Positions 9,373 through 36,322 of a DNA stretch of 64,000 bases are shown in pieces. The notes below the pieces were generated by a model, which was given only the letters and a program-made list of their open reading frames with translations, did not search any database and had not been told where the DNA came from. The number at the start of each line of letters is the position of its first letter. The first letter of the stretch is position 1. The position numbers and the translations under genes are program-made. Source of the stretch: Pseudomonas sp. StFLB209 (GTDB taxonomy: Bacteria > Pseudomonadota > Gammaproteobacteria > Pseudomonadales > Pseudomonadaceae); contig NZ_AP014637.1 in the NCBI RefSeq assembly GCF_000829415.1, forward strand, positions 3,117,001-3,181,000, written 5' to 3'.

Positions 9373-9453
9373 GCGAGGGTGGCTGTCAACAGGCACGGTC
9401 ACATCTCTTTTTTAAATACGAGGCTTTGGCCTTGGCCTGTTGGAATCGTCCCG

Positions 9454-9469: not shown

Positions 9470-9487
9470 ACTTGAAGGATTGCCCAA

Positions 9488-13769: not shown

Positions 13770-13847
13770 TAAACCCTGTCGTGTTTTTTGCCGGTGGCGT
13801 GTCCTCCCTCCTGAAAACGCACTTACACGCCATCAGGAACCCCCTTC

Positions 13848-21382: not shown

Positions 21383-21437
21383 GCAAAGCGCCTCGGGCAG
21401 GAACAGGAATGAGGCGCGGGAGTTTATCAGTTACGCA

Positions 21438-21465
21438 GCCGGCACGGAGGGCTCTGCGTGCCGGC
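21438..21465 (-). terminator. Hairpin between DUF1523 and methyltransferase genes
   Basis: GCCGGCACG/CGTGCCGGC, a 9-bp perfect stem with a 10-nt loop just downstream of the DUF1523 stop. No T-run is seen on either strand, so it may slow or process the transcript instead of fully terminating it. Confidence 0.4.
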
Positions 21466-21477
21466 ATGCAGGAGCGG

Positions 21478-22023
21478 TCAGCTGCGAACCACGCCATCGA
21501 CACGTGGCTTGCGCACCCGGCGGCGGATGAAGAGGGCGCTGAACAGCACGATCAGGATCAGCACCGTGAAGAACACGGTGTTGAACACCGGGAAGGGCTC
21601 GTCACGGCTGCTGGTCGACTCAACGGCGGTGATGTTGGGGAACATCGACAGGATCTGGATACGCCAGCCGTAATGACGGATCAGGACCAGTTGCTGTGCG
21701 TCACGCGAGTAGCCCTGGGCCTTGGCCTGCAGGTCGGCCGAGTCGAACTTGAAGTACCACGGGAAGCTCCAGCCGGTGTCTTCGTTGCGGTAAACCACGA
21801 CTTTCTTGGTTTGCGGGTCTTCGGTGTTAATGAAGTAAACGTCACGGGTCGGGCCGTCTGCCGGATTCTCGGCGTTGATCACGCCGTCAGCGTCCATGCG
21901 TTTGACTTCAACGCCGGTGACCAGCACCACATCATGCCGTGGCAGCAGGTAATGCAGGCTCAGTGCGCCCACGCCCACAACCAGAAAAACCACCAGCCAG
22001 ATCGACCGTCTGAGCCACTTCAT
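21478..22023 (-). CDS. DUF1523 family membrane protein
   Basis: 181 residues. An N-terminal membrane segment (about 7-27, IWLVVFLVVGVGALSLHYLLP) and a C-terminal one (about 147-166, VFFTVLILIVLFSALFI) followed by a basic tail flank a periplasmic domain. The domain has the DUF1523 pattern HDVVLVTGVEVKRMD near its start, then RDVYFINTEDPQTKKVVVYRNEDTGW and the WRIQILSMFPNI segment. Function is unknown. It is divergent from the ATP-grasp gene that begins the Ter locus, sharing a 158-bp intergenic region. Confidence 0.8.
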   Translation of the reverse strand: MKWLRRSIWLVVFLVVGVGALSLHYLLPRHDVVLVTGVEVKRMDADGVINAENPADGPTRDVYFINTEDPQTKKVVVYRNEDTGWSFPWYFKFDSADLQAKAQGYSRDAQQLVLIRHYGWRIQILSMFPNITAVESTSSRDEPFPVFNTVFFTVLILIVLFSALFIRRRVRKPRVDGVVRS

Positions 22024-22070
22024 GTCATTGTCCTCTTTGAAGAATTGCTTGAGTGTCAGGAATCTGCGGC

Positions 22071-22083
22071 TTTCTACTAGAAA
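22071..22083 (+). promoter_or_regulatory. Palindrome in the divergent DUF1523/Ter-locus region
   Basis: TTTCTA-C-TAGAAA is a perfect 6-bp inverted repeat with a 1-nt centre, 48 bp from the DUF1523 start and 99 bp from the ATP-grasp start. It may be an operator for one or both genes. I see no clear -35/-10 pair near it. Confidence 0.3.
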
Positions 22084-22181
22084 TCGCGCGACTTTGCTTG
22101 AATTCCAGTATTTTGCAGCAAATCAGTTATTACAAAATTCGACAAGGCCATCACGGATGGCTGCAAACGACGGAGAGTTGC

Positions 22182-23180
22182 ATGATCTGGTTCCTGGAAG
22201 GGCAGTCCAGCCAACGTGAAATCATCATGGGCGCACGCGAAGCCTTGCCAGCGTCGGTACGTATCGTTGCCTCGCATCGCCAGGAGCGTCCGGAGATCAC
22301 CAGCCAGGCTGACATCGCCCTGCGCGAACCCCATAACAGCGCCGAGCGGGTCGACTGGGTGATCAGCACGGCCCGGCAACTGGGGGTAAAGGTCGTGGTG
22401 GCCGGACGCATTGGCAGTGTTTATGAAAACCATCGTCAGCGTTTCGCTGAAGCCGACCTCGATCTGGTCACCGGCGGCCTGTCGCCGCAAACCTTCCACA
22501 GCGTAGACGACAAGAGCTGTTTTACCGCCGCCGCCGAGCAGGCCGGGCTGGCCTGTATACCGGGCATCACGGTAACCAATGCCGAGCAATTGCAAGAGGC
22601 CTACGCCGCGTTGAGTGTTTACGGTGAGGTATGCATCAAGCCAACGGTCGGCATCTTTGGTCATGGCTTCTGGCGCTTCAAGGACGGCGTTGACGCGTTC
22701 CGCTGTTTTGCCAACCCTGATGCGCGTGAGACCACCTTCGACGCTTATCTGCAGGCCTACCGGCAACCTGGCGAGCGCCCTGCGATGTTGGTCATGCCGT
22801 ACATGGCGGGCAGTGAGTGTTCGGTGGACCTGATCTGTGAAGGCGGCAAGGTGATTACCGGGGTCGGCCGGCGCAAGCAGGGCCTGCATCAGAGTTTTGA
22901 ACGCGATACGCCAGCGGTGCAGCTGGCGATGCAGGCAGCCGAGCACTTCGGCTGCGACGGCCTGGTCAATGTCCAGACCCGCGATGACGCGCAGGGCAAA
23001 CCGCACCTGCTGGAAATCAACCCGCGTTACTCCGGCGGTATCGGTTATACCCGTGAAACAGGCGTCAACTTGCCCGGTATTTTTGCGTGTCGACGTCTCG
23101 GCCTGAAAGAACCGGAAACAAATTGGTTGCCAAATATGCGCGTGAAGGCCATTACGGTGGCTGTACGGGCTCTCGCGTGA
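22182..23180 (+). CDS. ATP-grasp enzyme of the Ter locus
   Basis: 332 residues, start MIWFLEGQSSQREIIMGAREAL (ATG 22182, GGAGAG 5 bp upstream); upstream in-frame ATGs have no ribosome binding site. The central/C-terminal ATP-grasp fold is visible: CIKPTVGIFGHGFWRF (nucleotide-binding Lys and glycine loop), VMPYMAGSECSVDLICEGGKV, and the metal-binding LLEINPRYSGGIGYTRETGVN (E and N ligands). ATP-grasp enzymes make peptide-like or amide bonds through acyl-phosphates. It is the first gene of the Ter-associated biosynthetic block, where such an enzyme is known to recur; the substrate is unknown. Confidence 0.85.
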   Translation: MIWFLEGQSSQREIIMGAREALPASVRIVASHRQERPEITSQADIALREPHNSAERVDWVISTARQLGVKVVVAGRIGSVYENHRQRFAEADLDLVTGGLSPQTFHSVDDKSCFTAAAEQAGLACIPGITVTNAEQLQEAYAALSVYGEVCIKPTVGIFGHGFWRFKDGVDAFRCFANPDARETTFDAYLQAYRQPGERPAMLVMPYMAGSECSVDLICEGGKVITGVGRRKQGLHQSFERDTPAVQLAMQAAEHFGCDGLVNVQTRDDAQGKPHLLEINPRYSGGIGYTRETGVNLPGIFACRRLGLKEPETNWLPNMRVKAITVAVRALA

Positions 23181-23238
23181 TCGTAAATAATAGATTTTTA
23201 CTATTAGTCAGTCTTTCAGCCCATCAAGGAGGACCGGT

Positions 23239-24381
23239 ATGAAAGTGCTGGCACCTGGCGCAAACATCGCTCTTGCCAATGCCCGCTGCTCCTGGAATCT
23301 GGAGAGCGGCAAGGCTTCGGTTTTCGGCGACTTTGCCGCCGTTGCGCTGCTGCCTGTCAACGAGAAGCGCCAGCCTACCGGCGACGCCGCGTTGCTGCAT
23401 GATGAGCAGCGCTGGATGGAATGGAGCGGCGGCCCGGAAAACGTCGGCTGCACCTTGACCCTCAACAGCCTTCCGGGCGGCAGCGACCGGGTGCTGTTGA
23501 TGGTTTATGTCTATGCAGCGGCCGGCCCGGTCAGTGAAGTCAACAGCCTGGCCCTGCAGATCGACAACGACATCGAGTATCGCCTTGACCTGCGCGACAA
23601 CGGCGAAGCCTCGATCATCATCGGTGAGTTCTATCGCCGCAATGAGCAATGGAAATTTCGTGCCCTGAGCGAAGGCTCGGCCTATGGCCTGGCAGCATTC
23701 GGGCGCAACATCGGCCTGACGGTCAGCGATTACCACCCGCGGCGCGGTGCCAATAGCGGTGGCCAGAACGAACCGCGACATCAGTCAGCGACCGGCACGG
23801 CATTCGTGGTGGGGCCGGCGCACTTGATGACCTGCGCGCATGTCATCGAAGACATGAGCGTACTGCATATCAGCTCTCTGGAAGGCCGCTACAAGGTCGA
23901 ACCGGTGGTGGTTGACCGACGCAATGACATTGCCTTGCTGCGCGTGCAGGGGGCTTCGCCGCTCCACTCATTGCCGTTTCGCGAAGGGCCGGGCTGCGAG
24001 GCGGGTGACAATGTCGTTGCACTGGGCTATCCGCTGGCGTCGATTTCCGGTGGCAGCCTGCAGGTCACCCAAGGCGGTATTTCCAGCCTGTTCGGCCTGC
24101 ACAGCGATGCCAGCCTGTTGCAATTCACCGCACCGATCCAGCCTGGCTCCAGTGGCAGTCCACTGTTTGACAGCGGCGGCGCGGTGGTCGGCATGGTCAC
24201 CTCCAGCGTGCCGGACGCACAGAATATGAACTTTGCAGTCAAATCCGCGCTGCTGGTGGCGTTTCTACAAGCCTGTCGGGTACCAACGACGTTGCTGCGC
24301 CCGGAAAGAACCTACAGCACAACTGAAATATCCCGTACCGCACAGTCGGCGTTATGGCTGGTCGAAGCCTCCCGTAGCTGA
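23239..24381 (+). CDS. TerD-domain / trypsin-like serine protease fusion
   Basis: 380 residues. Residues 1-165 are a TerD-type beta domain (MKVLAPGANIALANARCSW, FYRRNEQWKFRALSEGSAYGLAAFGRNIG), but without the acidic DNRTGxGxGDDE calcium loop. Residues about 185-350 are a trypsin-2/DegP-like protease: TCAHVIED with His201, NDIALLRV with Asp230 and PGSSGSPLFD with Ser305, a complete triad. There is no signal peptide, so it is probably cytosolic, and no PDZ domain. AAGGAGG precedes the ATG. It sits second in the Ter operon and may cut a target when TerD partners sense stress; the target is unknown. Protease fusions to TerD domains are uncommon compared with free TerD proteins. Confidence 0.88.
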   Translation: MKVLAPGANIALANARCSWNLESGKASVFGDFAAVALLPVNEKRQPTGDAALLHDEQRWMEWSGGPENVGCTLTLNSLPGGSDRVLLMVYVYAAAGPVSEVNSLALQIDNDIEYRLDLRDNGEASIIIGEFYRRNEQWKFRALSEGSAYGLAAFGRNIGLTVSDYHPRRGANSGGQNEPRHQSATGTAFVVGPAHLMTCAHVIEDMSVLHISSLEGRYKVEPVVVDRRNDIALLRVQGASPLHSLPFREGPGCEAGDNVVALGYPLASISGGSLQVTQGGISSLFGLHSDASLLQFTAPIQPGSSGSPLFDSGGAVVGMVTSSVPDAQNMNFAVKSALLVAFLQACRVPTTLLRPERTYSTTEISRTAQSALWLVEASRS

Positions 24382-24436
24382 CTCCGATTGGTCGGTACAC
24401 CCCGATACACTTGCTTCTCCAACCAGGATTTGATCG

Positions 24437-25570
24437 ATGAACAGCCGTCAGGCGCTTCCCCAACCGACCATGCTGCATGCCCAATTGATGCGTGGACGCC
24501 TCGATGTGACGGTGGATGCCTCCTCCATTGCCCCTGATTCGCTGTTCGGTTTTGCCGAGCGGCGTAACCCCAAGCGTGCCTTTCTGTTCGTCTCGCGAGT
24601 ACTGGGCCGGCACATTCCTGTGCGCCCGGCGGTCATGCAGCAGAGTTTCGAAGACCTTGCAGCGCGGATTCCTGCGGACCTGCCGGGGCCGGTCCTGATC
24701 ATCGGCATGGCAGAGACTGCCGTCGGCCTTGGTGCCGGGGTGCACCGCGCCTACAGCCAGGCCCGCGACGATGTGCTGTACATGGTCAGCACCCGGCATC
24801 CAACTGGTACTGAGTTGTTCGCCCGTTTCGAAGAAGAGCACAGCCATGCCAGTGCTCACCTGATTCACCAGCCTGTCGACCCGGACCTGCGTGAAATGAT
24901 GCTTGCCGCGCTTTCGCTGGTGCTGGTCGATGACGAAGCCTCGACCGGCAAGACCTTCATCAATCTACATCACGCGCTGGTCGAGGCCGGCCTGACGCGT
25001 ATCGAGCGATTGGTGACCTGTGTGCTGACCGACTGGTCGGCAGGGGCGGTCAGCCGCAGCGCGAACGTGCAGACCGAGCAGGTTTCGCTGCTGCAGGGTA
25101 ACTATCACTTTGCCGAAGACCCTGAGGCGCCATTGCCTGAAATGCCTCAGGTAGGCACCGTGGCGGCGGGTGACTGGTCATTGTCGGCAGATAATGACTG
25201 GGGCCGCCTGGGCGTGCGTTCGGTCAACGACAGCCTGGCGCCGGACCTGCAAGTCAAGGCCGGGGAGAAAATCCTTGTTGTAGGCACCAGTGAGTTTGTC
25301 TGGCGGCCGTTCCTGCTGGCTGAGCGGCTGGAGCGGGCCGGTGCCGATGTGCATTTCAGCTCCACCAGCCGGTCGCCGATTGCTTTGGGCCATGCCATCG
25401 GGCATGCCTTGTCGTTCGCTGACAACTACGGGCTGGGGATTCCCAATTTTCTCTACAACGTCCGCCCCGGGCACTACGACCGGGTACTGATCTGCACCGA
25501 AACACCGGCTCAGGCCGTCGCGGCCGAACTGGTCGAAGCACTCAATGCCGAGGTCATCTGTGATGAGTAA
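24437..25570 (+). CDS. Ter-locus phosphoribosyltransferase with TRSP-type C-terminus
   Basis: 377 residues. The N-terminal part has a type I PRTase core: PVLIIGMAETAVGLGAGVHRA (about residues 84-104) and the PRPP loop SLVLVDDEASTGKTF (about 158-172, acidic pair then STGKT). The C-terminal part (about 245-377) fits the TRSP domain found next to these enzymes, with VVGTSEFVWRPFLLAERLE and STSRSPIALGHAI, and the YGLGIPNFLYNV segment. It should transfer or remove a phosphoribosyl group in the predicted nucleoside-like pathway. Its stop overlaps the HAD gene start by 8 bp. Confidence 0.83.
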   Translation: MNSRQALPQPTMLHAQLMRGRLDVTVDASSIAPDSLFGFAERRNPKRAFLFVSRVLGRHIPVRPAVMQQSFEDLAARIPADLPGPVLIIGMAETAVGLGAGVHRAYSQARDDVLYMVSTRHPTGTELFARFEEEHSHASAHLIHQPVDPDLREMMLAALSLVLVDDEASTGKTFINLHHALVEAGLTRIERLVTCVLTDWSAGAVSRSANVQTEQVSLLQGNYHFAEDPEAPLPEMPQVGTVAAGDWSLSADNDWGRLGVRSVNDSLAPDLQVKAGEKILVVGTSEFVWRPFLLAERLERAGADVHFSSTSRSPIALGHAIGHALSFADNYGLGIPNFLYNVRPGHYDRVLICTETPAQAVAAELVEALNAEVICDE

Positions 25571-26321
25571 TCCACGCCCTCTGATTCTCGTCGACCTTGA
25601 CGACACGCTGTTTCAGACCGCGCGCAAGACCGCGCCGGGTATCGAAAAGCACCCTGCGACCGTGGATATCAGCGGTAACCCCAACGGCTACATGACCAAC
25701 GTGCAGCAATCGTTCGTCAACTGGATGCTGGCCAATGCCGACGTGGTGCCGGTGACCGCCCGCAGTGTCGAGGCCTACAGCCGGGTAAAGCTGCCATTCA
25801 CGCAGGGCGCCATCTGCTCGCATGGCGGGGTGATGCTCGATGCCGGCGGCCGAGTGGATCAGGACTGGAACGAGCAGATGAAGCAAACCCTGGCGGGCTA
25901 TCAGATGCGTTTGCACGAGCTGTGCGCCGCGACCCTGGCGATTGGTCAGGAACTGGGTTTTTCGTTGCGCGGCTGGGTGGTGGAGGAGGCGCGCCTGTTC
26001 CATTACGTCGTCACCAAGCACAACGAAAGCGACGACCGGATCCTTGAGCGGGTGCTGGCTGAAGTTCAGACCCGTGGCCTGCTCGACGGCATGCATGTGC
26101 ATGGCAATGGCAACAACCTGGCATTCCTGCCCGATGGTCTGGCCAAGCGCTATGCCGTGCAGGAATGGTTGCGCCGCGACCGGGCGGTGCATGGCGAGCG
26201 CCCGGTATTGGGCTTTGGCGACAGCATCACTGACCTGGACTTCATGAACGAATGTCACTGGTGGGCAACCCCGGCCCGCAGTCAGTTGGCCCGGGTGTTT
26301 CTGGAGGCGACCGGTGAGTAA
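25563..26321 (+). CDS. HAD-family phosphatase of the Ter locus
   Basis: 252 residues, start MSNPRPLILVDLDDTLF (ATG 25563), overlapping the PRTase stop. HAD motif I is LVDLDDTLFQT (nucleophile Asp and acid/base Asp), a Thr of motif II lies in DVVPVTARS, and motif IV is FGDSITDLDFM (about 219-229). The size and cap type resemble Cof/sucrose-phosphatase-like HADs. It probably removes a phosphate from the pathway intermediate made by the neighbouring PRTases. Its last 8 bp overlap the next gene, so translation is tightly coupled. Confidence 0.85.
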   Translation: MSNPRPLILVDLDDTLFQTARKTAPGIEKHPATVDISGNPNGYMTNVQQSFVNWMLANADVVPVTARSVEAYSRVKLPFTQGAICSHGGVMLDAGGRVDQDWNEQMKQTLAGYQMRLHELCAATLAIGQELGFSLRGWVVEEARLFHYVVTKHNESDDRILERVLAEVQTRGLLDGMHVHGNGNNLAFLPDGLAKRYAVQEWLRRDRAVHGERPVLGFGDSITDLDFMNECHWWATPARSQLARVFLEATGE

Positions 26322-27432
26322 CCCGCGGCACGGCCCGGTGCGCGGTCCGATTCAGGGCATGCCCACCGTCGGCAGCGGCAGCTACCGTGAGGACGACGTG
26401 CAGTTTCTGCTGCGCAGTGTCGACATCGAAGTCACCGGCGTCGAAGAAAAAGAGCGGTTGATCCAGACCCGGCAAAAGCACTATTCGGAAATGATCAGCC
26501 AGGAACAGGCGCCGACGCCTGAGCACCAGCAGCTATACGAGCGCGCCCTGGCGTACAACGGTCAGCGTATGGCCGAAGATGTCCAGGCACTTGCCCAAGC
26601 CCTTGACCGGGAGTGCCACGGGCCGCAGATCGTGCTGGTGTCGTTCGTGCGTGCCGGCCTGCCGTTGGGCGTGCTGCTGGGCCGCGCCCTGCGCGACCTG
26701 GGGCGCCAGACCTGTCATTACGGCATCAGTATCATCCGCGACCGGGGCATCGATCAGCTTGCCCTGAAGACGATCATCGAGGCTCATGGCGCGCAGTCGA
26801 TCGTGTTCGTCGACGGCTGGACCGGCAAAGGCGCAATCAGTGCTGAGGTACAACGTAGCCTGGCGCAAGACCCGCGTTTCAGCGGGCCGCCCCGGCTGGT
26901 GGTGCTCGCCGATCCCTGCGGCCGCGCCTGGCTGGCGGCCTCCGCCGAAGACTGGGTCATTCCTTCCGGGATTCTCGGTGCTACCGTTTCCGGGCTGGTC
27001 TCGCGCTCCATCTGGCCGTCTGAGGCCGGTTTGCATGGTTGCGTGGTCTACGATCATTTGCAGGCCCACGACGTGACCCGGCCGTTTGTCGACCGGATTG
27101 ACGGTCTGCGTCGGCAATTGCCTGCCGTAACCACGGCGCAGCCATGGTCGGCAGACCAGGCTGGGCAGTTGCAGGCAGCGGCGGGGCAGGCCATTGATGG
27201 TCTGGCGGCGCGGTTTGCAGTGAGCAACTTCAACCGGATCAAACCGGGTATTGCGGAAGCGACGCGGGCAGTCATGCGCCGGGTACCTGATCATGTACTG
27301 GTGCGCGACAAGCGTGACAGTGACGTGCAGCTACTGTTGCATCTGACCGAACGGGCGGGCGTCCCGGTCGAGCAGGTTGGCGCTGCGCTGGGGCCCTATC
27401 GGGCGGCAACCATTATTCGGAGTCTCAGCTGA
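26314..27432 (+). CDS. PRTase/StiP-type protein with PELOTA RNA-binding domain
   Basis: 372 residues from a GTG at 26314 that overlaps the HAD stop. The N-terminal region (about 10-275) fits the family catalogued as PRTase_1 or, in other annotation, cysteine protease StiP: DDVQFLLRSVDIE, VSFVRAGLPLGVLLGRAL, HYGISIIRDRGID, FVDGWTGKGAIS (a PRPP-loop-like segment), and SGLVSRSI. The C-terminal 80 residues (SNFNRIKPGIAEATRAVMRR onward) fit the PELOTA RNA-binding-like domain. Whether it acts as a transferase, an RNA-binding enzyme or a protease is not settled for the family. Stop and next start overlap (TGATG). Confidence 0.8.
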   Translation: MSNPRHGPVRGPIQGMPTVGSGSYREDDVQFLLRSVDIEVTGVEEKERLIQTRQKHYSEMISQEQAPTPEHQQLYERALAYNGQRMAEDVQALAQALDRECHGPQIVLVSFVRAGLPLGVLLGRALRDLGRQTCHYGISIIRDRGIDQLALKTIIEAHGAQSIVFVDGWTGKGAISAEVQRSLAQDPRFSGPPRLVVLADPCGRAWLAASAEDWVIPSGILGATVSGLVSRSIWPSEAGLHGCVVYDHLQAHDVTRPFVDRIDGLRRQLPAVTTAQPWSADQAGQLQAAAGQAIDGLAARFAVSNFNRIKPGIAEATRAVMRRVPDHVLVRDKRDSDVQLLLHLTERAGVPVEQVGAALGPYRAATIIRSLS

Positions 27433-28382
27433 TGGCCCTTTTTTCGCCTTATGCGCTGGGCGCGACCCTCTACATGCCGGCCACCCGGGAAGATATCCTC
27501 GAGGTGGTATTTGGCCGCAAGATTCCCGAACTCCGCTCGTTGGTGGTGTGTCTGGAAGATGCCGTGGCGCCGGTTGATGTGGCCACGGCGCTGGATAACC
27601 TGCGTGAAGTGCTGCTGCGTATCGAGACTGTCGGCGGGCGTCCCGAAAATGGCCCGTTGCTGTTCGTGCGGCCTCGTGATGCGCAGATGGCGGCGGTGCT
27701 CAACGACTGGCCGCTGATGCGCCATGTGGACGGTTTCGTGGTGCCCAAGCTATCGCTGGGCAACCTGCACAGTTGGGAGCAGGCAGTGACCAATCCGGCG
27801 CTGGGGCTGATGCCGACCCTGGAAACCCCTGAGGTATTCAATCCGCTGGCCATGGCTGACCTGGGCCAGGCGCTCAAGGGCAGTCTCGATCAGCGCATCA
27901 TTGCCCTGCGCATTGGCGGCAATGACCTGATGGGGTGCCTGGGGTTGCGACGCAATCCGGCCATGACGCTGTATGGCACGCCGATGGGCTATGTGATTCC
28001 AATGCTGGCGGGGGTCATGGGGTCGCTGGGTTTTGCCCTGACCGCGCCGGTCTTCGAACAACTGGCAACCCCGGAAATTCTTGAGCAGGAGCTTGCACTG
28101 GACATCTCCCATGGCCTGGTGGGCAAGACCGCGATTCATCCTTCGCAGATCACCACCATCCAGAACGCCTTGCGGGTCAGCCTGGAAGATATGAATTCTG
28201 CACGGATGATATTGAACTCTGCGGCGGCTGCGGTGTTCAAGTACAACGACGCGATGTGTGAGCCGGCCACCCATTACAAGTGGGCAACCCGCATCATGGA
28301 GCGCGCCAAGTGGCATGGCGTGTTGCCGGCGCCGGCTGCAATCGTGGATGCCAGCATTCGACTCGCTGAGGCGGTTAGCTAA
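27432..28382 (+). CDS. HpcH/HpaI aldolase / citrate lyase beta-like protein
   Basis: 316 residues in the CitE-like TIM-barrel family. Signatures are LYMPATREDILEVVFGRKIP (N-terminus), SLVVCLEDAV (metal-ligand Glu), FVRPRD, GFVVPKLS (barrel strand), LMPTLETPE and GGNDLMGCLG, and the ending KTAIHPSQITTIQNALRVS. These enzymes cleave or condense C-C bonds of acyl-CoA or oxo-acids with Mg2+. In Ter loci this gene travels with the PRTases and HADs and is thought to supply or cleave a carbon skeleton. ATG overlaps the previous stop by 1 bp, and the following gene starts directly at the stop. Confidence 0.87.
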   Translation: MALFSPYALGATLYMPATREDILEVVFGRKIPELRSLVVCLEDAVAPVDVATALDNLREVLLRIETVGGRPENGPLLFVRPRDAQMAAVLNDWPLMRHVDGFVVPKLSLGNLHSWEQAVTNPALGLMPTLETPEVFNPLAMADLGQALKGSLDQRIIALRIGGNDLMGCLGLRRNPAMTLYGTPMGYVIPMLAGVMGSLGFALTAPVFEQLATPEILEQELALDISHGLVGKTAIHPSQITTIQNALRVSLEDMNSARMILNSAAAAVFKYNDAMCEPATHYKWATRIMERAKWHGVLPAPAAIVDASIRLAEAVS

Positions 28383-29123
28383 ATGACAGAGCCAGTGATA
28401 GAACCCGATCTGGAAGTTGAGGTGCAGGAGCGCCTGTTGGCGGTGTTCGATTTTGACGGAACCCTGACCCGGCATGACAGCTTCGTACCTTTTCTGAAGT
28501 TCGCCTTCGGTCAGCGGACATTTTCCTCGCGCATGGCGCGCATGGTGCTGCCCGGTCTCGGTTATCTGGCGCGGCGCGTGACCCGCGACGAGTTGAAAGC
28601 GCGATTGATCAAAGCTTTCCTCAGCGGCGTCGAAGCCCAGTGGGTCGAGGAAAAGGCCCAAGCCTTCTGCGACGCGTGGTGGGATCGCCTGATGCGCCCG
28701 ACCGCCTTGGTTTCCGTGGCAGCCGAGCTTGAAAAGGGCGCCATTGTGACGCTCTGCTCGGCATCGCCGGAAATCGTTCTGCGCCCGTTTGCTGATCGCC
28801 TCAAGGTCGAGCTGATCGGCACCAGCCTTGAGATTGTCGATGGCAAGCTGACCGGGCTGATCGAAGGTAGCAATTGCCGACGTGATTCCAAGGTCAGCCG
28901 TCTTGAAGGTGTTTACGGCCCGCTGAGCCAGTTCCGGGTGCGCGCCTGGGGCGACACCAGTGGTGACCACGAATTGCTCGCCGCCGCCCAGGATGCCCAC
29001 TGGCGACATTTCCATCCGGCGTGGCAGCGGGGGCGCTACAAGGCCCTGCCCAAGACCCCGTCCAAGGCGGCCATTAACGCCAAGTTACACAATCGAGATG
29101 GCTTTGATGAGCCATCGCGGTAA
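28383..29123 (+). CDS. HAD-IB phosphatase (SerB-like)
   Basis: 246 residues. Motif I is VFDFDGTLTRHDSF (about 20-33), motif II is ATLCSASPE-like TLCSASPEIV (Ser of motif II, about 123-132), and motif III/IV is AWGDTSGDHELL (about 189-200), the HAD-IB/phosphoserine phosphatase class with the C1 helical cap in between. It is the second phosphatase of the block; two HADs in one pathway suggest two dephosphorylation steps or a quality-control step. It begins directly after the aldolase stop. Confidence 0.87.
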   Translation: MTEPVIEPDLEVEVQERLLAVFDFDGTLTRHDSFVPFLKFAFGQRTFSSRMARMVLPGLGYLARRVTRDELKARLIKAFLSGVEAQWVEEKAQAFCDAWWDRLMRPTALVSVAAELEKGAIVTLCSASPEIVLRPFADRLKVELIGTSLEIVDGKLTGLIEGSNCRRDSKVSRLEGVYGPLSQFRVRAWGDTSGDHELLAAAQDAHWRHFHPAWQRGRYKALPKTPSKAAINAKLHNRDGFDEPSR

Positions 29124-29170
29124 CGCTGTCACGCTTTTAATCCGACTACCGTAGTTCAAGGGAGCGAAAA

Positions 29171-29761
29171 ATGGCACTCACGTTGGCAAAAAACCAGACA
29201 ATCTCGCTGGAAAAGACCGCCGGCACGGGCCTTAAAAAGGTCAGCATGGGCCTGGGCTGGGATCCCGAGAAAGCCAGCGGGTTCTTCGGCAAACTGCTCG
29301 GCGGCGGTGGCGAGATCGACCTTGATGCCTCGTGCATCATGCTCGACGCCGACAAAAAGCCGCTGGACCTGGTCTGGTTCCGTCAGTTGCAATCGCGCGA
29401 CGGCGCCATCCAGCACTCCGGCGACAACCGTACCGGCGAAGGCGCCGGTGACGACGAAACGATCAGCGTCGACCTGGAGCGTCTGCCGGGCACCGTCAAG
29501 TACCTGGTGTTCACCGTCAACTCGTTCACCGGGCAGACCTTCGAGAAGGTCGCCAACGCCTATTGCCGTATCGTCGACAATGGCTCGCGCAACGAGCTGG
29601 GTCGCTTCGACCTGTCCGAGAAAGGCCATCACACCGGTGTGGTCATGTCCTACCTGACCCGTACCGCAAGCGGCTGGGACTTCACCGCAGTCGGTCAGGT
29701 GACCAACGGCCGTACCGCTGACGATCTGGTCGATCTGGCCATTGGAGCGATTCGCGCATGA
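29171..29761 (+). CDS. terZ: TerZ-type TerD-family protein
   Basis: 196 residues, one TerD domain. It has MALTLAKNQTISLEKTAG, GLGWDPEKASGFFGKLLGGGGEIDLDAS and the intact calcium loop GDNRTGEGAGDDETI. The SFTGQTFEKVANAYCRIVD stretch in place of the usual IHDAD..QSFGQV is typical of TerZ. Predicted cytosolic calcium-binding protein that associates with the membrane protein TerC in stress and tellurite resistance. First gene of the classical terZABCDE order. Its stop overlaps terA by 4 bp (ATGA). Confidence 0.88.
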   Translation: MALTLAKNQTISLEKTAGTGLKKVSMGLGWDPEKASGFFGKLLGGGGEIDLDASCIMLDADKKPLDLVWFRQLQSRDGAIQHSGDNRTGEGAGDDETISVDLERLPGTVKYLVFTVNSFTGQTFEKVANAYCRIVDNGSRNELGRFDLSEKGHHTGVVMSYLTRTASGWDFTAVGQVTNGRTADDLVDLAIGAIRA

Positions 29762-30963
29762 CCCAACTTGTCCCAGGCGCCAACGCGCCAGTAGCGGCCG
29801 GCCCATTGACGGTCGACGTCGAGTACTCGCCTCTGGCAGGCGCGGAAATCGACATCTCTGCATTTTTGCTGACCAATACCGGCAAGGTGCGTGGCGACCA
29901 GGACATGTGTTTCTACGGCCAGACCAGCGTCAACGGCGGCGCTGTGCAACTGACCGACAGCGCTACCGGCAAGGTGCGCTTCAATCTGGACCTGGCGCGA
30001 CTGGACCCGGCGATCGAGAAGGTTGCACTGACCGCAACCATCCACGAGAACAAGGCCAGTTTCGATAAGGTCTCGCGTTTGCAGGTGAGCATCAGCGGCG
30101 GTCTTGAGGCGGCTATTTCCACCTCTGGCATGCAGGAAACCGCACTGATTCTCGGTGAGTTCTATCTGCGTCAGGGCGCCTGGAAATTCCGCTGCGTTGC
30201 TCAGGGCTTTGCTGGCGGCCTGGAGCCACTGGCGAAGAACTTCGGGGTTGAAGTGGCGGCTCCCGAGGTGCAGCCTCCAGCTCCAGCTCCAGCTCCAGCT
30301 CCAGCTCCAGCTCCAGCTCCAGCTCCAGCTCCGGCACCTGCGGCCAAGCCCACGGTCAGCCTGAGCAAGATCACGCTGGACAAGACGCGCGCCTCGATCA
30401 GCCTGGAAAAGACCAGTGCCGGTTTTGGCGAGATTCGCGTCAACCTGAACTGGAACCGCCGCAGCGAAGGTTCGGGCGGTTTTTTCTCGCGGCTCAAAAG
30501 CAATGCCATCGATCTCGATGTCGGCTGCCTGTTCGAGCTGCAGGACGGTTACAAGGGCGCGGTGCAGGCGCTGGGCAATGCCTTCGGTTCGCTGCAGGAA
30601 GAGCCGTACATCAAGCTGATGGGCGACGACCGTACCGGTTCTGTCAGTGAGGGCGAGTGGTTGCATATCAATGGCAGCCACTGGAGCAAGATTCGCCGGA
30701 TCCTGATCTACGCCTTCATTTACGAGGGCGCGCCGAACTGGAAGGAAACCGACGGGGTGATCACGATCCACGTGCCAGGCCAGCCACCGATCGAGGTGCG
30801 TCTGAACGAGGAGGGCGGTCGCCAGGGCATGTGTGCGATCGCCCTGCTGGAAAACGACAACGGCGCGGTCAAGGTGACTCGCCGGGTTGATTTCCATAAC
30901 GGCCACAGCAATATGGACAAGGCTTACAACTGGGGTATGCGCTGGGCGGCTGGCTCGAAGTGA
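29758..30963 (+). CDS. terA: TerA-type protein, two TerD-like domains joined by an Ala-Pro linker
   Basis: 401 residues. The N-terminal TerD-like domain (about 1-170) has VPGANAPVAAGPLTVDVEY and FYLRQGAWKFRCVAQGFAGGLEPLAKNFGVEV but no acidic calcium loop. A linker of about 11 Ala-Pro pairs (about 173-199) is encoded by a hexanucleotide run. The C-terminal domain (about 200-401) has SLEKTSAGFGEIRVNLNW and a degenerate calcium loop GDDRTGSVSEGEW. TerA is a standard member of the Ter operon, but its role is less clear than that of TerB/C/D. The next gene is separated by a 130-bp repeat element. Confidence 0.85.
   Translation: MTQLVPGANAPVAAGPLTVDVEYSPLAGAEIDISAFLLTNTGKVRGDQDMCFYGQTSVNGGAVQLTDSATGKVRFNLDLARLDPAIEKVALTATIHENKASFDKVSRLQVSISGGLEAAISTSGMQETALILGEFYLRQGAWKFRCVAQGFAGGLEPLAKNFGVEVAAPEVQPPAPAPAPAPAPAPAPAPAPAPAAKPTVSLSKITLDKTRASISLEKTSAGFGEIRVNLNWNRRSEGSGGFFSRLKSNAIDLDVGCLFELQDGYKGAVQALGNAFGSLQEEPYIKLMGDDRTGSVSEGEWLHINGSHWSKIRRILIYAFIYEGAPNWKETDGVITIHVPGQPPIEVRLNEEGGRQGMCAIALLENDNGAVKVTRRVDFHNGHSNMDKAYNWGMRWAAGSK
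30277..30330 (+). repeat. Hexanucleotide repeat (CCAGCT)9 in terA
   Basis: Nine perfect tandem copies of CCAGCT encode alternating Pro-Ala. Because the unit is 6 bp, gain or loss of copies changes linker length by two residues without shifting the frame. Confidence 0.97.
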
Positions 30964-30985
30964 ATGTCGTTGATGTCAGTGCGTG

Positions 30986-31115
30986 CCTCTAAAAACGTAG
31001 GCGAGGCAGCCAGCGCCAGGCGAAATCAGGCTAAAAAGCGGAGCTTACGGGTTGTAAGTGAGCACTTTTAGCCTGATTTCAACAACGCGATGGCCACGCA
31101 GGTAGTTTTTAGAGG
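30986..31115. repeat. 130-bp palindromic intergenic element, copy B
   Basis: Sits between terA and terB. The ends are CCTCTAAAAAC/GTTTTTAGAGG (11 bp, perfect). The inner arms AATCAGGCTAAAA/TTTTAGCCTGATT and CTTAC/GTAAG flank the centre. The core AGGCGAAAT..AAAAAGCGGAG..TGAGCA..GATTTCAAC is shared with the element at 56193-56322, but the end sequences differ. It resembles the short palindromic repeats common between genes in the P. fluorescens group; the exact named family was not identified. Confidence 0.8.
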
Positions 31116-31178
31116 TGCCCACGTGGATTCCGTAATTAAGAGTGTTGGGGCGGCCGTGCCGCTCCAAAGGGGGATAGA

Positions 31179-31628
31179 ATGCTGGACTGGTTGAAAAGCA
31201 ATGCAACAGCGGCGCGTGACAAACTCGCCTCTGAGGTCTCGAAGTACAAGAACCGCGAATTCCTTGATGCGGTTGTGTCGGGATGTGCGCTGGTCGCGGC
31301 TGCTGATGGTGATATCAGCTCCGCCGAGAAGCAGAAGATGGCGGGTTTCATCCAGAACTCCCAGGAACTCAAAGCCTTTGACATGAAAGATGTCATCAAG
31401 GCCTTCCAGGATGCTTGCTCCAAGTTCGAATTCGATGTCGAGATCGGTCGTGCCGAAGCACTCAAGACCATTGGCAAGATCAAGAACAAGGAAGATGCTG
31501 CGCGTCTGTTGATTCGCGTCTGCTGCGCCATTGGTGGTGCCGACGGCAGTTTCGAAGAAAGCGAGCGCCAGGTGTGCCGGATCATTTGTCGCGAACTGGG
31601 CCTGAACCCGGCCGACTTCGATCTGTAA
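31179..31628 (+). CDS. terB: TerB-family protein
   Basis: 149 residues, all-helical TerB fold. The two conserved acidic repeats are visible: AAADGDISSAEKQK (about residues 45-58) and GGADGSFEESERQ (about 116-128), plus DAARLLIRVCCAI. Family members bind metal and form the inner-membrane-associated stress complex with TerC. GGGGGATAG precedes the ATG. Because the 130-bp repeat lies upstream, it may have its own promoter; none was clear by eye. Confidence 0.92.
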   Translation: MLDWLKSNATAARDKLASEVSKYKNREFLDAVVSGCALVAAADGDISSAEKQKMAGFIQNSQELKAFDMKDVIKAFQDACSKFEFDVEIGRAEALKTIGKIKNKEDAARLLIRVCCAIGGADGSFEESERQVCRIICRELGLNPADFDL

Positions 31629-31655
31629 TCTATATCCCTCGAGGTACTCTGTTAA

Positions 31656-32693
31656 ATGGAAAGCAGCACTGCTATCGGCTTCCCGCCCCTGACAATGACC
31701 GTATTTATCGGTCTTGCCGTTGGCGCGATGATCATCGACCTCTTTTCGCACCGCGGCAACAAGCCGATCACCCTGACCCAGGCCTCCCTGTGGTCGATCT
31801 TCTGGGTCGCCATCTCGGTGGCGTTCGGCGTGTTCCTGTACTTCCAGCACGGCTCAGAAGTTTCGACCCTGTTCTTTACCGGCTATGCGCTGGAAAAAGT
31901 CCTCAGTGTCGACAACCTGTTTGTGTTCATGGCCCTGTTCGCCTGGTTCAAGATTCCCGATGGCCTGCGTCATCGTGTTCTGTACTGGGGCATCATGGGC
32001 GCCATTGTGTTCCGCGGCATCTTCGTGGCCATCGGTACCGGCCTGCTGGCCCTGGGCCCATGGGTCGAAGTGGTGTTTGCGATCATCGTTGCCTGGACCG
32101 CAATCATGATGTTGCGTGCCGGCGATGACGACGACGAAGAGATCGACTACTCGCAGCACATGGCTTACCGCTTCGCCAAGAAACTGTTCCCGGTCTGGCC
32201 AAAGCTGCACGGCCACAACTTCTTCGTGCGCCGTTCGGTACTCGAAGAAGAGATCAAGAAGCCTGAAAACGCCGGTATCACTCTGGCGGCCAAAGGTGCT
32301 CTGTTTGCAACCCCACTGTTTCTGTGTGTGGTTGTGGCCGAGATCTCCGACGTGCTGTTCGCTTTCGACTCGGTACCGGCGATCATCGCTGTCAGCCGTG
32401 AGCCGCTGATCGTCTACTCGGCGATGCTGTTCGCAATCCTGGGCCTGCGTACCCTGTACTTCGTCCTCGAAGCACTCAAGCGCTACCTGGTGCACCTGGA
32501 AAAAGCAGTTATTGCGTTGCTGTTCTTCATCGCCTTCAAACTGGGTCTGAACGCAACCGATCACATCTTCGGCCACGGCTACGGCATCAGCCCGAACACC
32601 AGCCTGATCGTCGTCATGGTTGTACTGGCCATCGGTATTCTGGCCAGCGTACTGTTCCCGGCCAAAGACGAAGAACCGGCTGCAAAAGCGTAA
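31656..32693 (+). CDS. terC: TerC integral membrane protein
   Basis: 345 residues with about nine membrane helices. Conserved acidic residues lie in the membrane motifs LEKVLSVDNLFVF (about residues 79-91) and VVAEISDVLFAFDSVPAI (about 225-242), the metal-ion transport signature of TerC/Alx/MntP-like proteins. A cytosolic loop rich in Asp/Glu (GDDDDEEIDY, about 156-165) is present. TerC anchors TerB/TerD at the inner membrane; related proteins export Mn2+. The leader is only 27 bp, too short for a yybP-ykoY riboswitch. Confidence 0.95.
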   Translation: MESSTAIGFPPLTMTVFIGLAVGAMIIDLFSHRGNKPITLTQASLWSIFWVAISVAFGVFLYFQHGSEVSTLFFTGYALEKVLSVDNLFVFMALFAWFKIPDGLRHRVLYWGIMGAIVFRGIFVAIGTGLLALGPWVEVVFAIIVAWTAIMMLRAGDDDDEEIDYSQHMAYRFAKKLFPVWPKLHGHNFFVRRSVLEEEIKKPENAGITLAAKGALFATPLFLCVVVAEISDVLFAFDSVPAIIAVSREPLIVYSAMLFAILGLRTLYFVLEALKRYLVHLEKAVIALLFFIAFKLGLNATDHIFGHGYGISPNTSLIVVMVVLAIGILASVLFPAKDEEPAAKA

Positions 32694-32720
32694 ATACTGG
32701 AAAAAGGAGATTACCCAATC

Positions 32721-33296
32721 ATGGCTTTGACTCTGCAAAAAGGTGGCAACCTTTCGCTGTCCAAGACTGACCCGAGCCTGACCAATGTGTTGATCGGCCT
32801 GGGCTGGGATCCACGCGCCACCGACGGTCAGGAGTTCGATCTGGACGCCAGTGCTTTTCTGATCGGCGCCAGTGGCAAGGTCCGCAGTGAAGCGGATTTC
32901 ATTTTCTACAACCAGCTCAAGAGCGCTGATGGCTCCGTCGAGCACACCGGTGACAACCGTACCGGTGCCGGTGACGGCGACGACGAAGTGATCAAGGTCG
33001 ACCTGAGCCGCGTACCGGCCGACGTCGAGAAAGTCGTGTTCGTGGTCACCATCCATGACGCCGATTCGCGCAAGCAGAACTTCGGTCAGGTGGGTGGTTC
33101 GTTCATTCGCGTGGTCAACGAGAAAAGCGGCAGCGAGATCGTACGTTACGACCTGGCTGAAGATGCCTCGACCGAAACCGCCATGCTGTTCGCCGAACTG
33201 TACCGCAACAATGGCGAGTGGAAATTCCGCGCTGTCGGCCAGGGTTATGCCGGTGGCCTGCGCGCTGTTGCCAACAATCTCGGCCTGAATTTCTGA
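32721..33296 (+). CDS. terD: TerD-family calcium-binding protein
   Basis: 191 residues, one TerD domain with all signature blocks: [55 protein letters not shown] (intact calcium loop), [23 protein letters not shown] and [15 protein letters not shown]. Cytosolic calcium-dependent partner of TerB/TerC. AAAGGAG lies 9 bp before the ATG. It is about two-thirds identical by eye to the following terE product, so the pair looks like a tandem duplication. Confidence 0.93.
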
Positions 33297-33333
33297 TTCA
33301 GGCTTTATCTGTATTCACTGGAGGAACACGCAA

Positions 33334-33912
33334 ATGGCTGTAAGTCTGAGCAAAGGCGGCAACGTCTCTCTGTCCAAAGAAGCTCCTGGTCTGTCGGAAA
33401 TCACTGTTGGCCTGGGCTGGGACCCTCGCGTGACTGACGGTACCGAGTTCGACCTCGACGCTTCGATCTTCGTCGTTGGTGAAAATGGCAAGGTGCTGAA
33501 CGACAGCGGCTTCATTTTCTACAACAACAAGAAGTCGGCTGATGGCTCGGTCGAGCACTTGGGCGACAACCGCTCCGGCGCTGGCGAAGGCGACGACGAG
33601 TCGGTACTGGTCAAGCTGACCGGCCTGGCTGCCGACGTGAAGAAGCTGGTGTTCGCTGTGACCATCCACGACGCCGATGCACGCAAGCAGAGCTTCGGTC
33701 AGGTTTCCAACGCCTACATCCGCGTTGTGAACAAGGCTGACGGCAAGGAAATCGCCCGTTACGACCTGTCGGAAGATGCTTCCACCGAAACCGCGATGAT
33801 CTTCGGTGAGCTGTATCGTCACAACGACGAGTTCAAGTTCAAGGCCATCGGCCAGGGCTTCGCCGGCGGCCTCAAGCCACTGGCTGAAGCTCATGGTGTA
33901 TCGATCGGCTGA
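33334..33912 (+). CDS. terE: TerE-type TerD-family calcium-binding protein
   Basis: 192 residues with the same architecture as ter[40 protein letters not shown], calcium loop [35 protein letters not shown], and [26 protein letters not shown] lies upstream of the ATG. Last gene of the forward Ter transcript, ended by a strong terminator and facing convergent terF. terD and terE symbols follow order in the classical operon; sequence alone does not separate them. Confidence 0.92.
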
Positions 33913-33927
33913 TCCTGATCGGTAAAC

Positions 33928-33958
33928 AAAAACCGCCATCTTCGATGGCGGTTTTTTT
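33928..33958. terminator. Bidirectional terminator between terE and terF
   Basis: AAAAACCGCCATC/GATGGCGGTTTTT with a TTC loop. The A-run on the left and T-run on the right let it end transcripts from both sides; it lies between the convergent terE and terF stops. Confidence 0.9.
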
Positions 33959-33959
33959 A

Positions 33960-35207
33960 TTAGAGAATTCCTGCGCTTTTGGCCGCCTTCAGCCAGTCAG
34001 GAAACTCCTCCATCAGCAGGTCATAGAGTTTCTCTTCAGCAATCTCGTCCAGTCGGTCGAGGGCGAAGAAATTGCAGTTATCCACCACTCGGCCTTCCAT
34101 GTCGTCGAGCTTCTCCAGAACCCCGTAACCATGCCCGCCCAGGCCGACAAACTGCCAGAAGATCGGTAGCCTGGCGGCTTCGCTCATCAGTTTGATGATC
34201 TCGCGGTTCTGCGATACGCCGCCATCGCTGATGAACAGGATATACACCGGGGTACGGTCGCCAGACTGCTTGTAGAAGTCGATCACCTGACGCATGACCT
34301 TGGGTTCGTTATTGACCCGTGAACCCAGTTCCCAGTCGCGCCAGCCGCCATGGTCGGTCTTGATGAAATCGCGGAAGTTGCTCAAGGTGACCGGCGTCAA
34401 GCGCATTGGCTTTGCGGCAAAGGCCCAGCAATCCAGCGCGCCGTCATCGTCAAAATGCACTGCCAGCGGCAACAGACGGTCAACGACTTCCTGGACATGG
34501 CCTCTGGAGTACTGGCCGTTCATGGAGCCGGAAGCATCCAGCACCAGCCCGACCCGGGCGCGGGTATCGGTCAACTGCGCCTTTTCCAGACTGACCTGGG
34601 CTTTCTTGGCCAGGCTGACCAGTTGTGGAGCCGCCTCGGCCACTTTCTTTTCCAGAGAAATTTTCGCGGCCGCCACGACAGGTGCCGGCGCCGGAGCAGG
34701 CTCATCGGCGACCTCGCCGCCAAAATGCACCACCAGGGCATCGAGCCCTGCGTTGTAGCCCTGCAGGTTGGAAGCCAGCCGCCACTCACCGTTCTTGCGA
34801 TACAGGTCAATGACCATGATCGCTTTTTCGGCGTTGAAGCTGCTGCCGGAGAACTCGCCGCGGGCAACCTCGCGACCCGCCTGGCCGATACTGAAGTGGC
34901 TGGCGCGGATCTGCTGCATGGTGCCTGCACCATCGATCGAGGCGGTGAACACCAGCCGATCAATGCTGGCCGGCAGGCTGCTCAGGTTCAGGCGAAACTC
35001 ATTGCCTTGCTGCTGGATGCTATTGCACGGGCTGGCCGGCTGATTGAAGAAGATCATGTAGCGATCATCTGACAGCTTGCCGTTGGCGTCGACGCCGAAG
35101 CACACATAGTCAATGACATGTGGCGAGTCGATGGCGAGGGTCAGGGTCAATGTCTGGCCCGAGATCAGGTTCGACAGCGGGACACGTTGTCCTTGGGAAA
35201 TCAGCAT
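33960..35207 (-). CDS. terF: TerF-type protein: TerD domain plus vWA domain
   Basis: 415 residues, start MLISQGQRVPLSNLI (AGGAGG 7 bp upstream on the reverse strand); the open frame extends 83 codons further but into the neighbouring region without support. The N-terminal TerD domain (about 1-170) lacks the acidic calcium loop. A Pro-Ala linker and Lys-rich helix (about 175-225) lead to a von Willebrand A domain (about 228-415) with the MIDAS motif LVLDASGSM and a later ISDGG. vWA proteins of Ter loci probably assemble metal-dependent protein complexes. It is convergent with terE and 41 bp downstream of the AIM24-type gene. Confidence 0.88.
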   Translation of the reverse strand: MLISQGQRVPLSNLISGQTLTLTLAIDSPHVIDYVCFGVDANGKLSDDRYMIFFNQPASPCNSIQQQGNEFRLNLSSLPASIDRLVFTASIDGAGTMQQIRASHFSIGQAGREVARGEFSGSSFNAEKAIMVIDLYRKNGEWRLASNLQGYNAGLDALVVHFGGEVADEPAPAPAPVVAAAKISLEKKVAEAAPQLVSLAKKAQVSLEKAQLTDTRARVGLVLDASGSMNGQYSRGHVQEVVDRLLPLAVHFDDDGALDCWAFAAKPMRLTPVTLSNFRDFIKTDHGGWRDWELGSRVNNEPKVMRQVIDFYKQSGDRTPVYILFISDGGVSQNREIIKLMSEAARLPIFWQFVGLGGHGYGVLEKLDDMEGRVVDNCNFFALDRLDEIAEEKLYDLLMEEFPDWLKAAKSAGIL

Positions 35208-35248
35208 GGCGCCTCCTGGAGTTTGACGTGGACGTTTGACTGCAGCGA

Positions 35249-36322
35249 TCAGCGTTCGCTGCGGCCCACACTGCCAGCCGGCAGGGCCGCCAGCATGCGT
35301 CCGGCCAGGCGCGAGAAGGGCAGGCTCTGCAGCCAGACGGTGCCGGGACCGGTCAGGCGGGCGAAAAACACGCCTTCGCCACCGAACAGCATCGACTTGA
35401 TACCGCCGACCATGCGGATGTCGTAATCGACGTTCTGGGTCATGGCTGCCAGGCAACCGGTGTCGACATCCAGCGATTCCCCAGGTGCCAGCTCGATACG
35501 CCTTACCGTACCGCCGGTATGCACGAACACCCAGCCGTCACCTTCGAGTTTCTGCAGGATGAAGCCTTCACCGCCGAACAGCCCGGTGAGGATCTTTTTC
35601 TGGAACTGGATGCCGATGGACACGCCCTTGGCCCCGGCCAGAAAGCTGTCTTTCTGGCACACCAGCTTGCCGCCGAAATCGCGCAGGTTGAGCGGCAGAA
35701 TGGTGCCGGGGTAGGGTGCCGCGAAGGCCACCCGGCCTTTGCCTGCGCCCTGTTGCGAGAACACCGTGGTGAACAGGCTTTCGCCGGTGAGCATGCGCTT
35801 GCCGGCACCGAACAATGAACCGAGTAGCCCGGAGGACTGACTGCTGCCGTCGCCGAAGATGGTTTCCATCTGTACGTCGCAGGTCTTGTACATCATCGCC
35901 CCGGCTTCGGCCACGGCGCTTTCACCACGGTCCAGTTCAAGCTCGACGAACTGCGTCTCGCTGCCGTACAGCTTGAAGTCAACGCCCTCGGTCACTGCCA
36001 GGGCGCCATAACCACTGGAGGCGCCAGACGCCGGGCTGGCTGCCGCTGGAACCGGTTGGGCGGAGGGCTGTGCGGGCGGTGCACTGTGCGGCGGCACTGC
36101 AGTGGGCCGAGGCTGCAGCATGTCAGCAGTCGGGTCGGGGAAAGGCGTGATGCCGTCCTTTTTCACGGCACGCACCTGTGGCACCTGATAAATCGGCTGC
36201 CAATCGGCCATGCCTGCGGTCCAGCACCAGGCGCCTGGTGCTTCCCGGGCAATCAGTCGAGCCGCTGCGTCATCCATCGGGCCCAACTGCTTGCCCGCAT
36301 TCACTACGAACCACTGTTGCAT
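35249..36322 (-). CDS. GYF-like plus AIM24 (TIGR00266) domain protein
   Basis: 357 residues. The N-terminal 50 residues have a GYF_2-like pattern (WFVVNAGKQLGPMDDAAARLI, WCWTAGMADWQPI). A Pro/Ala-rich linker (about 60-105) leads to the AIM24/TIGR00266 beta-rich domain (about 112-335), with VELELDRGESAVAEAGAMMY, GESLFTTVFSQ and GEGFILQKLEGDGWVFVHTGG. Proteins of this family often neighbour TerD genes; the function is unknown, possibly membrane- or complex-associated. It is upstream of terF on the same strand and probably co-transcribed with it. Confidence 0.85.
   Translation of the reverse strand: MQQWFVVNAGKQLGPMDDAAARLIAREAPGAWCWTAGMADWQPIYQVPQVRAVKKDGITPFPDPTADMLQPRPTAVPPHSAPPAQPSAQPVPAAASPASGASSGYGALAVTEGVDFKLYGSETQFVELELDRGESAVAEAGAMMYKTCDVQMETIFGDGSSQSSGLLGSLFGAGKRMLTGESLFTTVFSQQGAGKGRVAFAAPYPGTILPLNLRDFGGKLVCQKDSFLAGAKGVSIGIQFQKKILTGLFGGEGFILQKLEGDGWVFVHTGGTVRRIELAPGESLDVDTGCLAAMTQNVDYDIRMVGGIKSMLFGGEGVFFARLTGPGTVWLQSLPFSRLAGRMLAALPAGSVGRSER

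Follow-up and report, generated by a model that had tools for sequence, protein, structure and literature searches.

A chromosomal Ter stress locus of the Pseudomonas type in Pseudomonas sp. StFLB209, with nested enzyme genes and a TerD-trypsin protein

Ter-dependent stress response systems (Anantharaman, Iyer and Aravind, 2012), as excerpts of PMC7824862 and PMC8115787 convey them, combine genes encoding TerD, TerB, TerC and vWA proteins with phosphoribosyltransferase (PRTase) and HAD genes, and a nucleoside-like metabolite has been predicted for them, as is proposed here. The stretch of 64,000 nucleotides of Pseudomonas sp. StFLB209 analysed in this work (contig NZ_AP014637.1, positions 3,117,001 to 3,181,000 of the forward strand; hereafter the window, whose own positions are used below) likewise shows these genes, in what is almost certainly a chromosomal, apparently intact copy of the bacterial Ter stress/tellurite cluster, of the Pseudomonas type. 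Compared with the systems as those excerpts convey them, it has in addition a TerD-trypsin protease gene, a DUF1523 gene, a GYF-AIM24 gene and an enzyme content that is nested among relatives. Since this class of gene cluster is already known, the locus is largely ordinary; the parts of note for the specialist are the Pseudomonas form with the TerD-protease and the nested pathway.

Plasmid pLec-476cz of Leclercia (L097), with IncHI1A/IncP replicons, likewise shows genes encoding ATP-grasp, PRTase-TRSP, HAD-IIB, StiP, lyase and HAD-IB proteins, together with terZABCDE and terF, but its enzymes and terZ-F are divergent, there is no TerD-protease in the stretch extracted, and unlike the window it contains terW, vWA, TerY-C, PP2C and kinase genes as annotated. 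Plasmid pPniHBP1_1 of P. nitroreducens (L098) shows the same gene order as the window, including the TerD-protease and HAD-IB genes. It differs in being plasmid-borne, in having genes encoding LprI-like, DUF4236 and ankyrin proteins between terE and terF, and in showing no DUF1523 or AIM24 match in the stretch. The same TerD-before-trypsin pair as in the window is listed for P. syringae YP_273108.1 in a 2008 survey of serine proteases (PMC2605481), the excerpt of which treats it as a single protein, calls it not functionally characterised and gives no genomic context. This was the sole paper found in a literature search for TerD, trypsin-like and tellur-.

An earlier note on the window, made from its letters alone, had placed 15 genes at 22182-36322 in named Ter families and had described a biosynthetic half and a TerZABCDE half. 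Searches with Pfam (scores taken above the curated cut-offs) and NCBIfam find all 15 genes there and bear out the two-part description, but a sixteenth gene had been overlooked: it encodes a DUF1523 (PF07509) protein of 181 amino acids on the minus strand (21478-22023; 212.7 bits) and is divergent from the cassette. The plus strand begins with a gene encoding an ATP-grasp ligase of 332 amino acids (ATPgrasp_Ter, 22182-23180; 135 bits), with GGAGAG before its ATG and the motif E.N.R.SGG kept. It is followed by a gene encoding a TerD domain and a trypsin/HtrA-like protease (23239-24381; TerD 36.7 and Trypsin_2 88.3 bits), a gene encoding a type I PRTase with a C-terminal TRSP domain (24437-25570; PRTase_2 198 and TRSP 73 bits), a gene encoding an HAD-IIB type phosphatase (25545-26321), which has no Pfam match and an NCBIfam score of 27.4 bits, below the cut-off of 41.8, and a gene encoding StiP (PRTase_1) with a PELOTA_1 RNA-binding domain (26314-27432; 310 and 85 bits). 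A CitE-like C-C bond lyase gene (27432-28382; C-C_Bond_Lyase 338 bits) and an HAD-IB phosphatase gene (28383-29123; HAD 99 bits, and TIGR01490 111.4 bits for a cut-off of 98.3) complete this half. The PRTase, TRSP and PELOTA regions, a failure to place which would have spoken against the earlier assignment, were thus all placed.

The second half contains terZ (29171-29761), terA (29758-30963), terB (31179-31628; 86 bits), the membrane protein gene terC (31656-32693; 140 bits), terD (32721-33296) and terE (33334-33912). Pfam finds a TerD domain in terZ, terA, terD and terE; terA shows a second TerD-like half by alignment, and terD is close to the solved structure 2kxt. On the minus strand are terF (33960-35207; TerD 90.6 and vWA-TerF-like 277 bits) and the gene encoding the GYF_2-AIM24 protein (35249-36322; GYF_2 37.7 and AIM24 243 bits, the GYF part having been looked for in the window alone). 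The identity of the convergent terF as a TerD-vWA gene is upheld, but the TTG start formerly given to it, which overlaps the AIM24 gene, is replaced by the ATG at 35207, for a protein of 415 amino acids. TerD-family, TerB and TerC genes therefore co-occur as in Ter stress/tellurite loci, the biosynthetic module shows the ATPgrasp_Ter, PRTase_2-TRSP, StiP-PELOTA, C-C lyase and HAD genes, and the TerD-trypsin gene sits between the ATP-grasp and PRTase-TRSP genes, as in the Pseudomonas type. The genome is a single contig of 6.33 Mb, and the six TerD matches found in it are all inside the locus.

The TRSP marker was found at 31 places in 28 of 199 Pseudomonas genomes, and the places other than the window's own gave 30 Pseudomonas loci, in stretches of up to 20 kb, some shorter and one of 4.6 kb. 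Gene order was scored for the plus-strand run that starts with ATP-grasp and ends with terE, 13 genes in all. The comparison with other Pseudomonas that had been proposed as a check finds one cassette: the complete set of 13, in the window's order, is found in 22 of these 30 loci and, among the named loci, in 49 of 80; whatever genes are present keep the window's order and direction in 29/30 and 77/80, respectively. The named loci are the best 80 of 522 relatives from a scan of named genomes, a few of them shortened, and share some genomes with the 30 Pseudomonas loci; they belong mostly to Pseudomonas, with Burkholderia, Paraburkholderia, Azomonas, Stutzerimonas, Oceanobacter, Marinobacterium and Paucimonas. 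The best 19 of them (L102-L120), which we place in or close to the P. syringae group, all show DUF1523 upstream and AIM24 downstream. TRSP is present in 12 of 398 genomes of the phylum and in 24 of 149 genomes of the family of G578, which is labelled enteric because its loci share the gene order of the Leclercia plasmid. In the P. cerasi genome (L055, L109) the ATP-grasp and StiP genes are each broken into two open reading frames (ORFs). A contig of 65 kb filed as viral (IMGVR_UViG_2660238583_000003, L182) contains the full cassette with the TerD-protease; it could be a phage-plasmid, or else a plasmid filed wrongly.

Among the relatives the biosynthetic enzymes are nested, and their presence and absence in the sequences suggests a fixed order of addition: the two PRTases with HAD-IIB, then the lyase, then ATP-grasp, then HAD-IB. 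With profiles built from the loci, 149 loci were scored, of which 138 reach at least 3.5 kb upstream and at least 5.5 kb downstream of the PRTase gene; removing those at least 90% alike in PRTase-TRSP leaves 79 dereplicated loci. Stretches reach about 10 kb either way, 20 kb in total, and genes farther away are outside them. The nesting is obeyed by 78 of the 79 loci: six contain only the core (PRTase-TRSP, HAD-IIB and StiP), 12 add the lyase, 14 add ATP-grasp and 46 add HAD-IB. The remaining locus (L204) is still the only violation among the 138 loci when any hit is accepted. With L204 set aside, permutation of the columns of the other 78 loci, which ignores relatedness, gave a mean of 15.2 violations and a minimum of 6 in 10,000 permutations, against 0 observed. 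ATP-grasp presence changes 11 times, at least seven of them on well-supported branches, on a PRTase-TRSP tree of 77 rows without the phage row, all tree counts being from a quick method. One of the core-only loci (L161) is a decayed locus, since it holds a lyase remnant of 41 bits, and another is in a phage (L101). The locus of Burkholderia sp. D-99 (L157) was counted in the lyase-only class despite pieces of other genes, its ATP-grasp being in two ORFs and its HAD-IB shortened; the core, the lyase and the protease are complete there.

Three loci, two on Rhizobium plasmids (L099, whose stretch opens with the record itself, 1.6 kb ahead of the PRTase gene, and L100) and L192, show the three-gene core of PRTase-TRSP, HAD-IIB and StiP, but neither a lyase gene nor a ter gene in the stretch extracted. 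They bear on a reading of the cluster as plain resistance to tellurite or metal oxyanions, in which terCDE with helpers would detoxify, and the enzymes and the protease would be loosely attached passengers. In laboratory E. coli, terCD as the core set (PMC8779313, in excerpt) or terZ-F (PMC8115787, in excerpt) is enough for tellurite resistance, and an excerpt of PMC9537497 reports that an IncP-2-type plasmid raised the tellurite minimal inhibitory concentration of P. putida KT2440 8-fold. Since terZ-F or terCD alone gives this resistance, the biosynthetic half presumably serves something else. The occurrence of the three-gene core in stretches without a ter gene argues against passengers, as does the fact that the enzymes keep both their motifs and, in Pseudomonas, Burkholderia and enteric-type loci, their order. 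This reading appears rather unlikely.

The TerD-trypsin protein is a usual part of the Pseudomonas-type Ter locus and, judging from its residues, appears catalytically equipped. Of 187 distinct sequences 186 keep its triad, H201, D230 and S305; the remaining one is cut by the end of the stretch. The protease half matches the HtrA/DegS family by sequence and by structure model, with the trypsin fold and the His-Asp-Ser triad. Unlike HtrA/DegS proteases, the protein is fused to TerD, shows no PDZ family in a Pfam scan at E 0.001 and has no signal peptide evident by eye. The N-terminal half matches the solved TerD structure 2kxt (E 1.9e-10). Measured against the ligand residues of K. pneumoniae TerD, whose numbers are taken from an excerpt of PMC8779313, terD, terE and terZ keep all Ca2+ ligand positions, whereas the TerD domain of the protease does not show the Ca2+-binding set: one of six Ca1 positions (Glu89; Asp78 is replaced by Glu) and one of four Ca2 positions (Trp29) are identical, in an alignment that is loose there.

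Of the 199 Pseudomonas genomes, 22 contain full-length copies (at least 53% identity), at 25 places in total, and all 25 are beside TRSP; of the 31 TRSP places six have no full-length copy, among them G126, which keeps a short remnant. The protease could travel with the Pseudomonas ter cassette as a hitch-hiker of the lineage, functionally unconnected to the other genes, since it is present in 37 of the 79 dereplicated loci, mostly of Pseudomonas with Burkholderia and marine relatives, and since the 132 plasmid records that match it at E 1e-20 or better include 126 of Pseudomonas and none that is enteric by organism name. The position of all 25 full-length Pseudomonas copies beside TRSP and the triad, invariant in the 186 sequences that reach it, speak against this, as do Burkholderia loci (L139, L148-L150, L156) in which it is kept without ATP-grasp and HAD-IB, and an enteric-type genome (G663, L202) in which it follows the lyase, outside the usual Pseudomonas position, in a copy cut by the end of the stretch. 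A mere hitch-hiker is thus distinctly unlikely.

The locus enzymes keep their presumed catalytic motifs in relatives. The PRTase-TRSP protein shows a PRTase fold by structure model and PDB match, consistent with type I, and matches free-base enzymes; its VDDEASTG is taken by us to be the loop for phosphoribosyl pyrophosphate (PRPP). The HAD-IIB protein keeps DLDDT in 38-39 of 39 seeds, and StiP shows a loop-like VDGWTGKG in 40 of 40 seeds and a weak match to the PRTase_2 profile (E 0.0052, probability 6.9%). The lyase has a weak PDB match to citrate lyase beta (1sgj, E 0.0026). The core enzymes might instead act on RNA, the PELOTA domain of StiP bringing the PRTase to tRNA or rRNA, so that the product would be a modified RNA base and not a free nucleoside. 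The 85 bits of PELOTA_1 are compatible with this, and a search of PDB sequences with StiP up to E 1 gave L7Ae RNA-binding proteins alone, aligned to PELOTA at a non-significant E 0.42. But there is no Rfam family at gathering score within the locus, and the other PRTase carries TRSP instead of PELOTA and has the fold of free-base enzymes. Action on RNA seems highly improbable. A nucleoside-like product of the enzyme half is somewhat more likely than not.

The explanation we tentatively prefer, while giving it as a whole somewhat less than an even chance, joins a nested nucleoside-like pathway, a Ter membrane complex and a docked protease. The two PRTases and the HAD-IIB phosphatase, as an obligatory core, would make a ribosylated and dephosphorylated nucleoside-like compound, which the lyase, ATP-grasp and HAD-IB enzymes would tailor in that order; the order as read from the nesting may equally well be right or wrong. 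Stepwise tailoring would imply simpler or more complex versions of the compound in different lineages. TerZ, TerD and TerE, with TerD domains of the Ca2+ type, could form with TerC, TerB and TerF a membrane-side complex that reads the compound or the ion state. The TerD-protease would dock on it through its altered TerD domain and cleave some target as an output or reset step; that the protease is the output of the complex is possible but leans towards doubtful. A more far-reaching version, small-molecule signalling with a nucleoside-like messenger, lineage-specific tailoring and a proteolytic effector switched by the Ter complex, as a Ter counterpart of nucleotide-messenger immune systems, must be considered very unlikely.

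Several results weigh against the preferred explanation. No fold match came up for TRSP, since hits to the PRTase domain took up the whole list, and TRSP was rejected as a second PRTase domain for want of profile similarity to PRTases. L204 shows HAD-IB and lyase without ATP-grasp or HAD-IIB, and the absence of HAD-IB in enteric-type loci may be partly due to the 20-kb stretches. The structure model of the TerD-protease has a pLDDT of 82.7 and a pTM of 0.55, and because of the latter the placing of its domains relative to each other is uncertain. With 42 of the 79 loci lacking it, and no enteric plasmid record showing it at E 1e-20, the protease is no universal output. DUF1523 was rejected as a general Ter component, since only two (G000, G309) of the 37 genomes that carry it among the 398 of the phylum also have TRSP.

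The same genes could form an anti-phage or anti-bacteriocin system, in which infection would trigger a nucleoside-like messenger read by TerD domains, with the TerD-protease and the membrane proteins as effectors. In the jumbo phage ME3 the three-gene core lies next to a TerD-type gene, and superinfection defence has been proposed for the ME3 genes, according to an excerpt of PMC7824862. The PRTase-TRSP gene is on 2,556 plasmid records, 130 of them of Pseudomonas, and the protease domain matches RT-Protease_XI (E 9.9e-20) and other models of PADLOC-DB 2.0.0. However, this match is that of the protease domain alone, and the other nine of the 10 locus proteins (out of 16) given to PADLOC have no match, so that no known anti-phage system was recognised. 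The cassette also adjoins the chromosomal nadC gene in the window, G018 and G180, which would fit a resident locus better than a defence island. This argument is weak because the other flank differs among relatives, DUF748 and methyltransferase genes being found there only in the window, L048/L104, L102 and L103. The gene nadC also adjoins AIM24 in L055, L109, L110 and L118. Nine of 10 genomes whose nadC regions were compared have no cassette there; eight of these are without TRSP, and G011 has TRSP elsewhere. On balance a defence system seems unlikely.

The DUF1523 protein shows hydrophobic segments at both ends by eye, and its gene is present in 19 of the 199 Pseudomonas genomes, each of which is one of the 28 that bear TRSP (hypergeometric 4e-20, inflated by relatedness), in some of them far from ter. 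Occurrences of DUF1523 in mycobacteriophages were set aside as a hint, since each is a single line in a table and one of the matches is weak. The terF vWA domain is above the cut-off in 16 of the 199 genomes, all TRSP-bearing, with four more weak matches below it. AIM24 is above the cut-off in 33 of the 199; in seven the open frame has at least 369 amino acids, and all seven of these are at the ter locus. AIM24 as such was rejected as Ter-specific, since the other 26 genomes have a short frame (248-297 amino acids) and only G041 of these has TRSP. In a Stutzerimonas locus (L160) AIM24 follows terE and DUF1523 is nearby.

At the level of bases, of the 12 plus-strand junctions four overlap by 1-26 bases, one abuts and seven are gapped by 27-215 bases. 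The earlier note had read starts overlapping previous stops as making the first half one translational chain. The overlapping chain extends only from the PRTase gene (24437) to the HAD-IB gene (29123), and the rest was overstated, the first two junctions being gaps of 58 and 55 bases. The divergent intergenic region (22024-22181) contains an 18-bp block, CAGTTATTACAAAATTCG, at 22124-22141 before the ATP-grasp gene, identical in 13 aligned sequences (the window and 12 chosen relatives out of 84 extracted). A regulon of this block was rejected, as it occurs once in the genome at up to three mismatches, the same number as for the backward control. A sigma-70 promoter was likewise rejected, since a scan gave one site in the region, for 3.8 expected, and none in front of the cassette. 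Between the convergent terE and terF a terminator-like stem-loop with T-runs on both strands was seen by eye at about 33930-33958; its folding energy is -19 kcal/mol for each of the strands, which 0 of 200 shuffles equalled, and it is absent from the output of a consensus scan. A plus-strand ORF at 21409-22080 was rejected as a gene, being antisense to DUF1523 and without Pfam or NCBIfam match. Recent horizontal origin was rejected on base composition, with G+C of 0.56-0.64 in 2-kb windows and no sharp step at the ends; the lowest value of the locus is in terB-terD. Elsewhere in the window are a ribosomal S15 leader (9432-9544), two tRNA genes (Leu, 2863-2948; Met, 3046-3122) and, between pnp-like and DUF748 genes, a trio resembling sigma-factor, FecR and TonB-receptor genes by eye from translations (12295-16229). 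Genes resembling this trio flank the ter locus of G009 (L041).

For the family as a whole, the PRTase-TRSP gene is widespread, with 2,556 of 72,556 plasmid records, and the enzyme half is dispensable for resistance to tellurite, the trait after which the locus is named. The nesting splits a puzzle of six enzymes into a series, a core of three to which the lyase, ATP-grasp and HAD-IB are added, which could be solved stepwise from natural variants. The TerD-protease would offer a defined output, whose targets could be searched for by proteomics.

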